Under the pieces are notes generated by a model. The model did no database searches and was not told where the DNA came from. It saw only the letters and a program-made list of their open reading frames with translations. A DNA stretch of 64,000 bases from an uncultured Rhodopila sp. (GTDB lineage: Bacteria > Pseudomonadota > Alphaproteobacteria > Acetobacterales > Acetobacteraceae), in contig CAINOE010000019.1 of assembly GCA_903851415.1 (NCBI GenBank), positions 124,001 through 188,000 of the forward strand, given 5' to 3'. This document shows, in pieces, positions 44,098-49,093 of the stretch (within the stretch, counting starts at the first letter, position 1; every line of letters begins with the position of its first letter). The position numbers were made by a program, and so were the translations under genes.

Positions 44098-44424
44098 TCA
44101 CGGATTGGCATCGAAGATGTCGCGGGCGATGTTGGCGGCGGACATGGCAGAGGGCCAGCCGGCGTAGAACGCGACGTGGGTGATCATTTCGGAGATTTCC
44201 GTCTGTGTCAGGCCGTTGTCGAGGGCGCGCTGGAGGTGGCCTTTGAGCTGCTCCGGCCGGTAGGTGGCGGTGAGGACGGCGATGGTGATCAGGCTGCGGT
44301 CGCGTTTCGACAACTCAGGGCGTTCCCAGATGTCGCCGAACAGGACGTCGTCGGTGAGCTCGATCAGCTTGGGGACGGTGGCACGGACGCGGTCTCGGGG
44401 GGAGGGTGCGGGGGGTTGGGTCAT
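44098..44424 (-). CDS. Carboxymuconolactone decarboxylase family protein
   Basis: This 108-residue alpha-helical protein has the family stretch LSKRDRSLITIAVLTATYRP, followed by LKGHLQRALDNGLTQTEISE and HVAFYAGWPSAMSA. It lacks the Cys pair of AhpD, so it is probably a decarboxylase or thiol-independent relative. The start at 44424 follows GAGGAC. It may be involved in aromatic degradation, but no pathway genes are beside it. Confidence 0.87.
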   Translation of the reverse strand: MTQPPAPSPRDRVRATVPKLIELTDDVLFGDIWERPELSKRDRSLITIAVLTATYRPEQLKGHLQRALDNGLTQTEISEMITHVAFYAGWPSAMSAANIARDIFDANP

Positions 44425-44658
44425 TTTGGGTGTGTCCTCAGGTTGGGATTGGGCGGGGATTGGATACGATCGGGGTGGGGGAGTCCAATATTTACAGAGG
44501 CGGGACTTGAGGCGTTCAACGGCCACGTCTCCCAAACGCCACCGTTTTCGTGACCGGCGTTGACAGTGGGACGACTTGTTGGCTGCCTTTGATCTTGTCG
44601 CTCGGCGAGCTGTCATGGCGGTCGTAGCGGTGGCAAGCTGATGACGGCACGCGATACC

Positions 44659-44686
44659 TTGACTTTTTATCCGCATTCCACATAAT
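44659..44686 (+). promoter_or_regulatory. Sigma70-like promoter of the SIR2-NTPase gene
   Basis: TTGACT (44659-44664) and CATAAT (44681-44686) are separated by 16 bases and lie about 98 bases before ATG 44784. The GC-poor flank stands out in this genome. The remaining gap 44425-44783 contains no gene. Confidence 0.55.
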
Positions 44687-44783
44687 TCCGGATATGGCGA
44701 CTGACGTGGTGGGGATGCGGTATCCGAGTGGAAGTACTGGCCACATCAGGCGCTGGCTTATGACGCTAGATTAGGTGGTGAAA

Positions 44784-47237
44784 ATGCCGACTTCGAGTTT
44801 CGACCCGCTCCACGCTGCAATCAAGCATGCTCTCGACGGTTCAGGGTTGCTGTTCGTCGGAGCCGGCGTGTCTTTCCTGTTGACCAACGCCGCGAAACGC
44901 CCGCTGCCAAATGGGATTGCTCTGAACAAAGCATTCCATAACGCCTGTGGTATCGACTACCCGAATTATACATTGGACCGTATCTCAGGCCACTATCTTA
45001 GGAAATTTGGCTCAATCAAGTTATACGACTTTTTGTGCGAAGAACTCATTGTCCAAACTGTCGACCCGGAATTGCAAGAGCTTTATAGGCTTGACTGGCA
45101 GCGGATTTATACAACTAACTACGATAACGCTATTGAAATTTCCCGAAAAGGAATCAGCAATCCAGCGCCTCTTATACTTAATGATGCTCCGCGAAACATA
45201 GTTGGCGGAGCGACAATACATCTTAATGGCTCTATTAAGCGAGTTTCAGCCACTCGGATTTCAGACGATATTATCCTAACGGATGTCAGCTATGCATCGG
45301 ATAGGCTAGTGCACAGCCCTTGGGCGCATGCTTTTCGATCGGATCTTCGTACAGCAAAGTCAATCATTTTTGTTGGCTATAGTCTTGCGGACCTAGATAT
45401 TGCCAAAATCTTGATCGAAGATAGGTCGCTTAAGTCAAAAACTGTCTTTGTGATCGCACCCAACGCACCTGAGATCGATCGTGATGCGTTGGAGCACTAC
45501 GGCATGGTCTATGCGACCGGCGTCAAAGTCCTGTTTGAAAAGATCCGAGAGATCCGTGGATCGCACCGTAGAGCTGACAAAATTGAGACATTTTCGAGTC
45601 TCAAAGAGCTTACGCCGGATGCGGAGCATTCTTCCGCCAACGCCGTCCGCGTCCTATATGACCAACTCATATTTGGCCTAATGCCGCTATCCCAAATTCT
45701 AACCGCAACGCCAGTATTCGGTGATACAAAGTACCTCGTCAAGCGCGTTGCAGTAGACCAGGCCTTTGACCGGTTGCGGCTAGGCTCGATGCGAGACACC
45801 ATCATTACTGGAGAACTTGCCTGTGGCAAGACTTTTGGAGCGATCCAGTTGGGCGTCCGGTTGCGCGAAGAGGGATATCGGGTCTTCATCGCCACGGCCC
45901 TGAGGGATCTAGAAAGAGAACTCCAACAAATCTGCCGCATCGAGGGAAAGATCTGTATAATTTTCGATCAATACCGTACGTATCTGGACAACATAAAGAC
46001 TTACGCCGATCAGCGCCCGCTTACCCACTGTATGATTCTCACTGAGCGGCTAACGATTCACGAACTCCTAGGTGACGTAGCGATAGCGAGCGTCGGCGAA
46101 GGAACATGCCAAGTGACGGTTCTTGACCACTTGACACCGCCGGAGGCTGCCCATTTTGACGCTCTCATGAACTTCTTAGGATTGTGGGGAGAGTATGCCG
46201 GTCTTTCGAGCGCTCAACGTTTAAGGCGAATAGACATCAACTTAGGGAACTCACTCTACCGCCTTCTCTTGGAAGCGATAAAGTCGAAGAAGGTACAAGA
46301 TGATATCAGGGAGTTAATCGAACCGCTTAAGGGCGACGAGACAGCACTTCAGTTTTTTACAACGGCATTCATCTCTAATATTATCGGTGTTGATTTTTGG
46401 ATAAATGATTGGCAAGACTATTATGATATCAGAAATGTGCGAGAGGTAATCCGAAAATTCAGCGCCCACCTCAGGCATTTCATGCTTATTGATGCCGCTA
46501 GCATAAGAATGCGGACAGGCCTAATCAGCGCATATCTCCTACAACAATTTCTAGATAATGACCTTGTGCTTAAATGTCTTGTAAATATGTTTGCTCATTC
46601 TGTGAAAGTTGCTGAGGTCGACAAAGATTTTCGGCGGCTGTCCATCGAACTTGCAAAATATAGTACGATAGAGCCTCTCTTTAGAGATCCGCAAAAACTG
46701 GCCTTTCTGGTAAATTATTACGAGGAGATTAGAGAGTTTGGATCGACCAAAGACAGTGCCGACTACTGGTTGCAGTACGGCATCGCTTCCACTATATATG
46801 GGGACCTGGGTCGCGCGGAAACCGCCTTTAAAAACGCCTATTCCCGCGAAAGAAGCCACGCGTATCCCAATCTTACTCGAATCGACAACTACTTCTCGCG
46901 GTTTGAGATGCAGAAAGCGGTTCAAACAGGCGACAAAGAGGAGGCTTTCAGGCTCTTCAAAGCAGGCAGTGATCGGTTAGTCAAACAGATATTTCTTGAT
47001 AACAATCGACACTATCCGTTCAAAACTGGTCGAGCTTTTTCCGACATAGCTGCAAAACACTATGCGTCCTGGTCACCACAACAACAAAGTGCATTCGTAT
47101 CTATGGCTCGATCGATCCGCGAGAAAGCGCAGGCTTGGAAGAAATCGAATCGGGTCGGCAGTGCCGACGTGGAGATCCTCATCCGCGAAACAGGACAACT
47201 GCTTACACAAATAAGTACCAAGCATTCTCACTCCTAG
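44784..47237 (+). CDS. SIR2-P-loop NTPase fusion, putative antiphage effector
   Basis: This 817-residue protein has an N-terminal SIR2-like NADase domain: FVGAGVS (24-30), YTTNYD (catalytic Asn112), IHLNGS (His146) and IIFVGYSLADLD (about 194-205). A P-loop NTPase follows, with Walker A GELACGKT (343-350) and Walker B ICIIFDQY. The rest is helical and may be repeat-like near 640-740 (GDLGRAETAFKNAY). The layout fits SIR2-STAND defence proteins such as Avs5, in which a sensor triggers NAD depletion. The gene is clearly AT-richer than all its neighbours, which suggests transfer. ATG 44784 follows AGGTGG; GTG codons at 44775 and 44778 are alternatives. It appears to be a single-gene system. Confidence 0.82.
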   Translation: MPTSSFDPLHAAIKHALDGSGLLFVGAGVSFLLTNAAKRPLPNGIALNKAFHNACGIDYPNYTLDRISGHYLRKFGSIKLYDFLCEELIVQTVDPELQELYRLDWQRIYTTNYDNAIEISRKGISNPAPLILNDAPRNIVGGATIHLNGSIKRVSATRISDDIILTDVSYASDRLVHSPWAHAFRSDLRTAKSIIFVGYSLADLDIAKILIEDRSLKSKTVFVIAPNAPEIDRDALEHYGMVYATGVKVLFEKIREIRGSHRRADKIETFSSLKELTPDAEHSSANAVRVLYDQLIFGLMPLSQILTATPVFGDTKYLVKRVAVDQAFDRLRLGSMRDTIITGELACGKTFGAIQLGVRLREEGYRVFIATALRDLERELQQICRIEGKICIIFDQYRTYLDNIKTYADQRPLTHCMILTERLTIHELLGDVAIASVGEGTCQVTVLDHLTPPEAAHFDALMNFLGLWGEYAGLSSAQRLRRIDINLGNSLYRLLLEAIKSKKVQDDIRELIEPLKGDETALQFFTTAFISNIIGVDFWINDWQDYYDIRNVREVIRKFSAHLRHFMLIDAASIRMRTGLISAYLLQQFLDNDLVLKCLVNMFAHSVKVAEVDKDFRRLSIELAKYSTIEPLFRDPQKLAFLVNYYEEIREFGSTKDSADYWLQYGIASTIYGDLGRAETAFKNAYSRERSHAYPNLTRIDNYFSRFEMQKAVQTGDKEEAFRLFKAGSDRLVKQIFLDNNRHYPFKTGRAFSDIAAKHYASWSPQQQSAFVSMARSIREKAQAWKKSNRVGSADVEILIRETGQLLTQISTKHSHS

Positions 47238-47433
47238 GCGTCGCGATTGCTTGGGCGCTTGTGCGTCACTGTGGTTATGGCGGATAGAATGATCATCCCG
47301 CTTGTTGTCGCAACCTCGAAAACATTCGCTCTTGGAGAAAGAGGCAGAGCGGTATGACGGATGGCACAGAAACTCTGTTCGCGCTCCACCGCCTCAACCA
47401 GCCGGGCGTCACTTTTCTAGACCTATCCAGCCC

Positions 47434-47841
47434 TTACCCCCCAACCGCCTTCCGCGGCCGTCCTCCCTTCGCCCCATTCTCCCGTGCCGCCGCAGCCTTG
47501 GCTGGAGACGTCGCCTGCCCCGCCCGCCGGGCCATATACGCCTTCGTCCCGAACAGCCCGGCAAGCAGCCCCGGCACAGACAGATCGGCGTCGAGTGCCT
47601 CCCAGTGCAGCCCGTAGCCCGCCCCCAGCAGTTCCACCCCGGCAAGCTGATCGTCCGTCGCCGTCTCGAGTCCCTCCGCCAGGTGCGGCGGGAAGGCAAA
47701 AGTGCATCCATTCGTCAGGTCCACGATGATCCGGCGCAGCCGGCGATCATAGCGCACGGCCCGGGCGCGCGGCTCGTTGACGGCAGCCAGCCTCCCCCGT
47801 TCGGTCGCAGCGTCGATCTGTGCGTCAGTCAAATCAGCCAT
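47434..47841 (-). CDS. DUF2442 domain protein
   Basis: This 135-residue protein has the DUF2442 core: DRRLRRIIVDLTNGCTFAFP and ELLGAGYGLHWEALDADLSV. The tail (ENGAKGGRPRKAVGG) is basic and could bind DNA. It overlaps the DUF4160 gene by 8 bases, a conserved pairing often predicted as a toxin-antitoxin module, though the roles are not established. ATG 47841 is chosen because it follows GGTGGGAGGATATC. Confidence 0.85.
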   Translation of the reverse strand: MADLTDAQIDAATERGRLAAVNEPRARAVRYDRRLRRIIVDLTNGCTFAFPPHLAEGLETATDDQLAGVELLGAGYGLHWEALDADLSVPGLLAGLFGTKAYMARRAGQATSPAKAAAARENGAKGGRPRKAVGG

Positions 47842-48073
47842 GGATATCCTCCCACCTTGCGAGCAGAAAGTCTTGCTGCTCAACGACAACTTGCATGGCC
47901 CGGCGGACCTCGCCCCGGTCCATGCCCTCGGACCAAACCAACTCCGCGGTCCCGCCGGCACTCCGGAGATTGATCTTGGCCTGGCCATCACCGAAGACGT
48001 GCACATGGGCCGGTTGATGATCATCGGAAAAGATGATCACCCGCAAACCGCGGGCACGAAGAACGGTGACCAT
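47834..48073 (-). CDS. DUF4160 domain protein
   Basis: This 79-residue protein has the DUF4160 pattern: RVIIFSDDHQPAHVHVFGDG followed by AELVWSEGMDRGEVRRAMQV and VEQQDFLLARWEDIHG. The H-x-P-x-H-x-H motif could be catalytic or metal-binding. It precedes DUF2442 with an 8-base overlap and would be translated first. It is probably the toxin-like member of the pair, by inference only. Confidence 0.85.
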   Translation of the reverse strand: MVTVLRARGLRVIIFSDDHQPAHVHVFGDGQAKINLRSAGGTAELVWSEGMDRGEVRRAMQVVVEQQDFLLARWEDIHG

Positions 48074-48223: not shown

Positions 48224-48590
48224 GTGACCGCAGACGATACCTTTCTCAGCAACGTCTTCAGCACCGACGGCACGATCGAACCCGATCGCCTTGGCGCGGC
48301 ACTCCGCGTCACCAAGACCGAACTGGCCGCCGCATCCGGCCTCTCACGCGATGCCGTGTCCAAGACGCGGCGCCTGCAAGCCCCGGCCACGCAAACGCGC
48401 CTGCGAGAAGTTGCCGAGACCATCAACCGCATCCTGCCCCGGGCGGCTCCGTGCAACAGGCTTTGGTTTGGTACCGGTCTCAGCCGATCCCGGCGTTCGG
48501 CGACCAGACGGCGGAGGATCTGCTGCGGGCCGGGCGGTCGGACCACCTGAGACGCCACCTCGCCGGGATCGCCACCGGCGGATATGCGCG
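48224..48590 (+). pseudogene. Frameshifted Xre/MbcA/ParS-type antitoxin
   Basis: The first frame encodes the N-terminus (TFLSNVFSTDGTIEPDRLGA, LSRDAVSKTRRLQAPATQTR) up to INRILPR. The family continuation (VQQALVWYRSQPIPAFGDQT, AEDLLRAGR, IATGGYA) sits in another frame. A single missing G near 48441 (GGCGGCTCC where GGCGGGCTCC is expected) accounts for the switch. The normal stop after GGYA is also lost. It is the antitoxin of the RES toxin remnant next to it, now apparently inactive. Confidence 0.8.
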
Positions 48591-49093
48591 AGGCCGATCG
48601 GCTTCGTCTACCGGGCGCACAATCCGCGTTGGGCCTTCGCACCGGTCTCCGGCCTCGGCGCCGCCTCGACCGGGGGCCGCTTCAACCCCCCGGCATGCCG
48701 GCGCTCCACACCAGCCGGCGGTTGGAGACCGCGTGGCTCGAGGCGCAGCAGGGCTTTCCGTTCAAGGCGCTGCCGATGCCGCTGTGCGCGTATGAGATAG
48801 ACTGCGAGGCCCTCCTCGACCTGACCGGCCCGGGCATTCTGGCGGCGCATGCGATCACCCCGGGCGACCTCGCCTGCCGATGGAAGGACCTGGCCACGCG
48901 CGGGACCAGGCCGCCAACATGGCAGCTCGCCGAGCGTCTTGTCGCGAATGCCGCCCCTGAGTCCGAAAACACCCCGCCCCTGCCCCCGGCCAACGACGAA
49001 ACGCCATCCCCACTTCCGGACAGTATCGGAACAAGTATGCGTGACGCACCCGCGAACGAGAAACCTGAAGCCGAAACCGGCGCTCATTCGTAG
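48584..49093 (+). pseudogene. Frameshifted RES-domain toxin
   Basis: The RES N-terminus (IGFVYRAHNPRWAFAPVSG) reads in one frame, and PGMPALHTSRRLETAWLEAQ with CAYEIDCEALLDLT in another. A C6 tract near 48684, where C7 is expected, explains the second shift; a further shift lies near the start. The C-terminus (after about residue 125) is Pro/Glu-rich sequence unlike the family end. Intact RES toxins degrade NAD. This is a decayed Xre-RES locus. Confidence 0.8.

Follow-up and report, generated by a model that had tools for sequence, protein, structure and literature searches.

The stretch of DNA analysed here, called the window, comprises 64,000 nucleotides from an uncultured Rhodopila sp. (assembly GCA_903851415.1, contig CAINOE010000019.1, positions 124,001 to 188,000), and our subject is one of its genes, which encodes a protein joining a SIR2 domain to a P-loop nucleoside triphosphatase (NTPase) and a helical tail. 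The gene lies in an intact open reading frame (ORF) on the + strand at 44775-47237, giving 820 amino acids (aa) from a GTG at 44775 or 817 aa from an ATG at 44784, the likely start. Motif residues are numbered on the 817-aa product (the window protein), while the SIR2_2 and 9jap_A match ranges are numbered from the GTG. The features of the gene, in window positions, are as follows.

44784 to 47237, + strand, stop included: very probable Avs5-type SIR2-STAND protein, 817 aa; alternative GTG start at 44775.
44773 to 44778, + strand: AGGTGG, ribosome-binding-site-like, upstream of the ATG at 44784, read directly from the sequence.
44659 to 44686, + strand: promoter-like string TTGACT-N16-CATAAT, of a kind whose count is within chance expectation.
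44859 to 45533, + strand: SIR2 domain, about residues 26-250, with GAGVS (26-30), TTNYD (110-114) and H146-L-N-G149, the NG variant of the HG motif.
45585 to 46121, + strand: linker and STAND P-loop NTPase, residues 268-446, with Walker A (343-350), the Walker B-like D395 and conserved R422.
46137 to 46511, + strand: helical and winged-helix-like part of the STAND module, residues 452-576, with helices 519-534, 540-547 and 551-558 and strands 567-569 and 573-576.
46557 to 47234, + strand: helical-repeat tail, about residues 592-817, presumed sensor, in which Y646, W662 and Q664 match published Avs5 tail residues.

The three-part, 817-residue layout had been proposed in a first-pass annotation made from the sequence alone, and it is borne out by the intact frame, by a Pfam match to SIR2_2 (PF13289; 49.9 bits against a cut-off of 24.5, residues 110-244) and by the location of the motifs FVGAGVS (24-30), YTTNYD (109-114), HLNG (146-149), GELACGKT (343-350) and IIFDQY, which contains D395. 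The winged-helix-like label for residues 452-576 is a reading of predicted secondary structure. The annotation had also given the gene its own promoter. The string is present; however, the region 44400-47500 holds five promoter-like sites against 3.2 (standard deviation 1.7) in shuffled sequence, and because this count is within expectation the string was discarded as promoter evidence.

Among solved structures, the best match by sequence is 9jap_A (E 5.5e-61, residues 82-777). The entry, PDB 9JAP, is titled "Helical structure of EfAvs5(SIR2-STAND)", was released on 2025-03-19 and holds Avs5 of Escherichia fergusonii (EfAvs5; Wang et al. 2025, Nat Commun 16:2408). An AlphaFold2 model of the window protein (pLDDT 90.5) likewise has 9JAP as its top structure match, and the AVAST5 filament 9NC9 is the second Foldseek entry for the whole model, yet at 13-14% identity. 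As a stand-in for EfAvs5 we used its near-copy L009, an E. coli plasmid protein that aligns with 9jap over 849/849 residues (1846 bits); over 792 aligned columns, L009 and the window protein share 25% identity. The window protein therefore resembles EfAvs5 over its full length, in domain order, in predicted fold and in its catalytic and P-loop residues, and differs from it in overall sequence (about 25% identity, measured to the near-copy) and in a diverged tail, so that its trigger may differ. Full-length similarity to a named system, the finding that the annotation had set against its own proposal of an undescribed and perhaps new type, is thus what EfAvs5 provides, though at low identity, and that proposal does not stand.

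The annotation had further described the NTPase as lacking STAND features beyond the P-loop. This description is contradicted by the C-terminal part, which matches EfAvs5, SAMD9 and other STAND structures. When the part without SIR2 was folded alone, EfAvs5 was again the best match and SAMD9 the next, and on this ground we assign the NTPase to STAND; its Foldseek matches with E values of 0.001 or less comprise EfAvs5, SAMD9, 9nc9, 6mfv and ORC/Cdc6-type entries. Human SAMD9 shares the fold over 662-671 residues in its best rows but is an animal protein with about 10% identity. For Pfam nSTAND3 the window protein scores below the cut-off (16 against 27.2) and L009 above it (33.2). Matches in a viral fold library were weak, the best at 7.1e-5.

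Residue-level hallmarks of Avs5 can be taken from Muralidharan et al. 2026 (PMC12931631), who describe PaAvs5-1, -2 and -3, proteins from a different host that we compared by their published residue positions. For PaAvs5-1 they give GAGxS at 24-28, TTNxD at 108-112, NG at 153-154, Walker A at 357-364, E410, R438, Y661, W675 and Q677, and they state that NG is about as frequent as HG among Avs5 proteins. All of these hallmarks are found in the window protein at near-equal spacing. Its SIR2 domain has GAGVS, TTNYD and N148-G149; its NTPase has K349 in Walker A, the Walker B-like acid D395 (E410 in PaAvs5-1) and R422, an arginine standing, as in the PaAvs5 proteins, 27-28 residues past the acid; and its tail has Y646, W662 and Q664 opposite Y661, W675 and Q677. 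The SIR2-STAND-repeat layout is shared as well. Counting the structure matches of the C-terminal part and the full-length homology through 9jap and L009, the window protein has every testable feature of Avs5 in the wide sense, and it lies outside the strict NCBIfam equivalog.

That equivalog, NF041814, has a cut-off of at least 1000 bits, and the window protein reaches 24.3. Its closest relative, L015, reaches 47.3 bits (residues 67-465), and the EfAvs5-like L009 is not matched by the model at any E value up to 0.1; no member above the cut-off was found in the 398, 5, 247 and 248 genomes or records searched. PADLOC and NCBIfam scans of the window protein returned weak matches, including ThsA and Avs5 (PADLOC Avs5, E 0.0023). 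This poor fit of NF041814 may explain why the protein looked undescribed. Three comparison rows with 223, 138 and 234 bits on NF041814 (L118, L120 and L121) were compared with it as profiles: 658 columns aligned at E 2.5e-27, and split comparisons gave 9.5e-20 for SIR2, 4.2e-12 for NTPase plus tail, 8.9e-9 for the NTPase, 5.7e-6 for the tail and 1.7e-5 for the last part. Eight controls (two reversed, five column-shuffled and one cross-domain) gave E values of 0.024 to 0.49. By BLASTP, the match between the window protein and L118 is confined to the SIR2 domain.

Relatives were collected with an alignment of eight natural proteins, run on collections of genome and viral contigs, which gave 125 relatives among 145 pattern-matched stretches in the genome contigs and 15 loci in the viral contigs. 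The best 80 of the 125 were kept and, with the viral loci, make up 95 loci; in 83 of them the ORF reaches 700 aa or more, and in the other 12 it is shorter (contig edge or earlier stop). Single-protein scans gave no confirmed relative in the genome contigs (13 pattern stretches) or the viral contigs (one stretch), a viral-contig scan with the Avs5-like L118 gave none (nine stretches), and a phage record collection held no match for the window protein or L118. Alignment A2 consists of the window protein and 73 of the 95 loci (74 rows); omitted, to limit size and without a formal rule, were the 12 short loci and ten long ones (L054, L059, L072, L074, L087, L090, L096, L100, L102 and L105). Identity to the window protein in A2 is 42% for L015, from a metagenome-assembled genome, 41% for Roseococcus L016 and at most 26% for the other 71 relatives.

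The catalytic and nucleotide-site residues are strongly conserved in A2, with N112, D114, G348 and K349 each present in 74/74 rows. N112 and H146 had been suggested as sites for catalytic mutants, and of these N112 is to be preferred. H146 is kept in 73/74 rows, but in the profile alignment it is N148, two residues further on, that lines up with the histidine of the HG motif in Avs5 relatives; this column holds N in 60 rows, H in 13 and Y in one. Position 395 is D in 39 rows, E in 31 and P in four, and R422 is present in 68/74. In the tail, W662 is found in 72/74 rows and Q664 in 73/74, and column 646 is Y in 63 and F in 11.

A tree was built from 81 rows, comprising the window protein, ten loci from plasmids and searches (the three comparison rows among them) and those 70 of the 80 genome-contig loci with an ORF above 700 aa; three NF041814-like rows were imposed as outgroup. 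The tree was a quick search under a simple model, with warnings for long branches meeting, the outgroup with the rest among them, and for uneven letter make-up in 33 rows, and only a three-row clade and the broad split were used. Its rows span eight named phyla (Pseudomonadota, Bacteroidota, Bacillota, Chloroflexota, Deferribacterota, Spirochaetota, Campylobacterota and Thermodesulfobacteriota). The window protein clusters with L015 and L016 (Shimodaira-Hasegawa-like approximate likelihood ratio test, SH-aLRT, 100) and sides with the EfAvs5-like L009 against the imposed outgroup. The published tree of Avs5 divides it into four clades. We consider it possible, with the balance tipping against it, that these three proteins, which the annotation model for Avs5 scores far below its cut-off, form a separate deep branch of Avs5 with a phage trigger of its own.

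The distribution of the gene is patchy. Among 385 genomes sampled from the class, its own included, five have any match and two a nearly full-length one (its own and G107); among 33 genomes of the genus the gene is found in its own only, one other having a weak SIR2-only match. Plasmid records match in 45 of 72,556 cases, 12 covering at least 80% of the query. In E. coli 400660, an EfAvs5-like gene stands alone between two copies of the insertion sequence IS1A on the chromosome (L122:14074-18700), and near-copies of L009 and L012 occur in two and nine of 5426 E. coli genomes, respectively. The same E. coli strain carries a further copy of its EfAvs5-like gene on a plasmid.

In composition, too, the gene stands apart. 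Its GC content is 0.48, against a mean of 0.660 (standard deviation 0.021, minimum 0.598) in 283 stretches of the same length elsewhere in the window (z -8.4), making it the most AT-rich stretch of the window, and its GC content at third codon positions is 0.51, compared with 0.70-0.90 in eight other genes between 41299 and 54019. The AT-richness relative to neighbours noted in the annotation is thus confirmed; the gene is foreign in composition and apparently acquired. In one genome of the same genus (G1237), both flanks enclose a DUF6602 gene in place of the window gene; in another (G1235), the right flank was not matched within 15 kb after the left flank. The one full comparison suggests that the locus is a variable slot. 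The annotation's reading of a single SIR2-NTPase gene as a phage defence candidate is supported, the gene being apparently acquired; defence itself is, as in the annotation, an inferred function.

The domain order, the conserved residues of the catalytic and nucleotide sites, the homology to EfAvs5 over the full length, the foreign composition and the patchy distribution are observed, and the fold is predicted. The window protein is very probably a divergent antiphage member of Avs5 (SIR2-STAND) on the EfAvs5 side of the group, that is, a distant relative of a known system and not a new one. By analogy with what has been published on Avs5, it is likely to be activated, to form filaments, to hydrolyse NAD+ and to give protection. 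The nucleotide-binding STAND module would keep the resting protein closed until the helical tail recognised a phage protein produced during infection; the STAND module would then rearrange, the protein would assemble into filaments, SIR2 would hydrolyse NAD+ and the infection would abort. According to the PaAvs5 paper (PMC12931631), the PaAvs5 trigger is an early jumbo-phage protein, the SIR2, nucleotide-site and C-terminal parts are all needed, and NAD+ falls after infection; PMC12700824, citing Wang et al., says that Avs5 seems to need to form filaments before it can act. Because sequence similarity is lowest in the tail, it is plausible that the window protein responds to a different trigger.

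Three observations weigh against this assignment, all of them compatible with the probability given above. The fork that sets the trio and the EfAvs5-like rows apart from a group of 13 rows has a support of just 89, VIA-align scores some DSR2 and ThsA entries equal to the AVAST5 entry 9nc9 for the whole model, and four relatives match Dsr1 or Dsr2 weakly, at 16-22 bits. The last two, with a SIR2 domain that matches ThsA, KomC and DSR2 structures, could point to a DSR2- or ThsA-type SIR2 effector instead. The annotation had called for comparison with Avs5, DSR1/2 and ThsA, and the outcome is uneven: EfAvs5 matches over the full length, whereas DSR2 and ThsA match mainly in SIR2 and the rest of their chains is unlike the best matches of the window protein. 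In ThsA, SIR2 is followed by a SLOG-type ligand-sensing domain; ThsA sequences match the SIR2 part alone, and the remainder of the window protein matches STAND structures, although no search was aimed at SLOG. None of the Foldseek matches of the SIR2-less part listed above is DSR2 or ThsA. By Foldseek, the best DSR2 match to the whole model (1.3e-9) ranks far behind those to 9jap and 9nc9, and in NCBIfam, where the DSR1/DSR2 models NF041818 and NF041819 have cut-offs of at least 1400 bits, neither matches the window protein at any E value up to 1. We regard a DSR2 or ThsA type as very improbable.

Hardly more probable is a new defence type, with SIR2 fused to a P-loop NTPase that has no relation to STAND. 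The lack of a curated model covering the protein well, as seen from its PADLOC and NCBIfam Avs5 scores, speaks for it, but the full-length 9JAP match already refutes such a reading, the NTPase and tail without SIR2 also match Avs5 and STAND structures, and we rejected it; a candidate new system is thereby removed. An Avs5 relic no longer working in its host genome is improbable, if slightly less so: the gene is GC-poor, occupies what seems a variable slot, has close by a RES-like gene that is broken across two frames, begins its Walker A stretch with G where 53/74 rows have S and has T at residue 578 where 68/74 have S, yet no stop interrupts its 817 codons, and it retains those catalytic and P-loop residues that are invariant. 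As for an ordinary sirtuin deacetylase or housekeeping protein, the SIR2 fold is present, but its fusion to a STAND module, the restriction to one of 33 genomes of the genus and the relatives on plasmids and between IS1 copies make this the remotest of the alternatives; the genus search showed no conserved chromosomal context across relatives in those genomes. For the divergent Avs5 reading, a profile from the 74 rows would let annotation tools count a wide branch, spread over eight named phyla in the tree, and would also single out members whose tails have diverged, for use in the search for triggers.

Ten neighbours of four relatives were scanned with PADLOC at E up to 1e-4. A mad3-like protein (334 bits) was found directly upstream of the L015 gene, at L015:614-3592 (+ strand), and one neighbour of L040 matches several defence models, PbeA best (49 bits); the remaining eight gave no match at this threshold. 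With matches this thin, a claim of defence islands around the relatives was dropped.

To the left of the window gene lie acyl-CoA dehydrogenase, ABC1-like and carboxymuconolactone decarboxylase (CMD) genes, and to its right DUF2442, DUF4160, the RES-like gene, TspO and an alpha/beta hydrolase. DUF2442 and DUF4160 form an overlapping pair (47434-48073, - strand) whose DNA recurs for the greater part, with 68-87% identity, in seven other genomes of the genus among the 33 searched. The RES domain (PF08808) is matched in two frames, at 48291-48800 and 48584-49093 (+ strand), by fragments covering profile positions 2-31 (22.6 bits, just under the cut-off of 23.2) and 28-115 (28.5 bits), and because the frames differ the gene looks frameshifted. 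The DUF6602 protein in the matching slot of the same-genus genome has 433 aa (L134:12197-13498, - strand). A second SIR2_2 protein is encoded in the genome of the window (L001, G000:C73:8924-9379), in an open frame of 302 aa, with a match of 79 bits.
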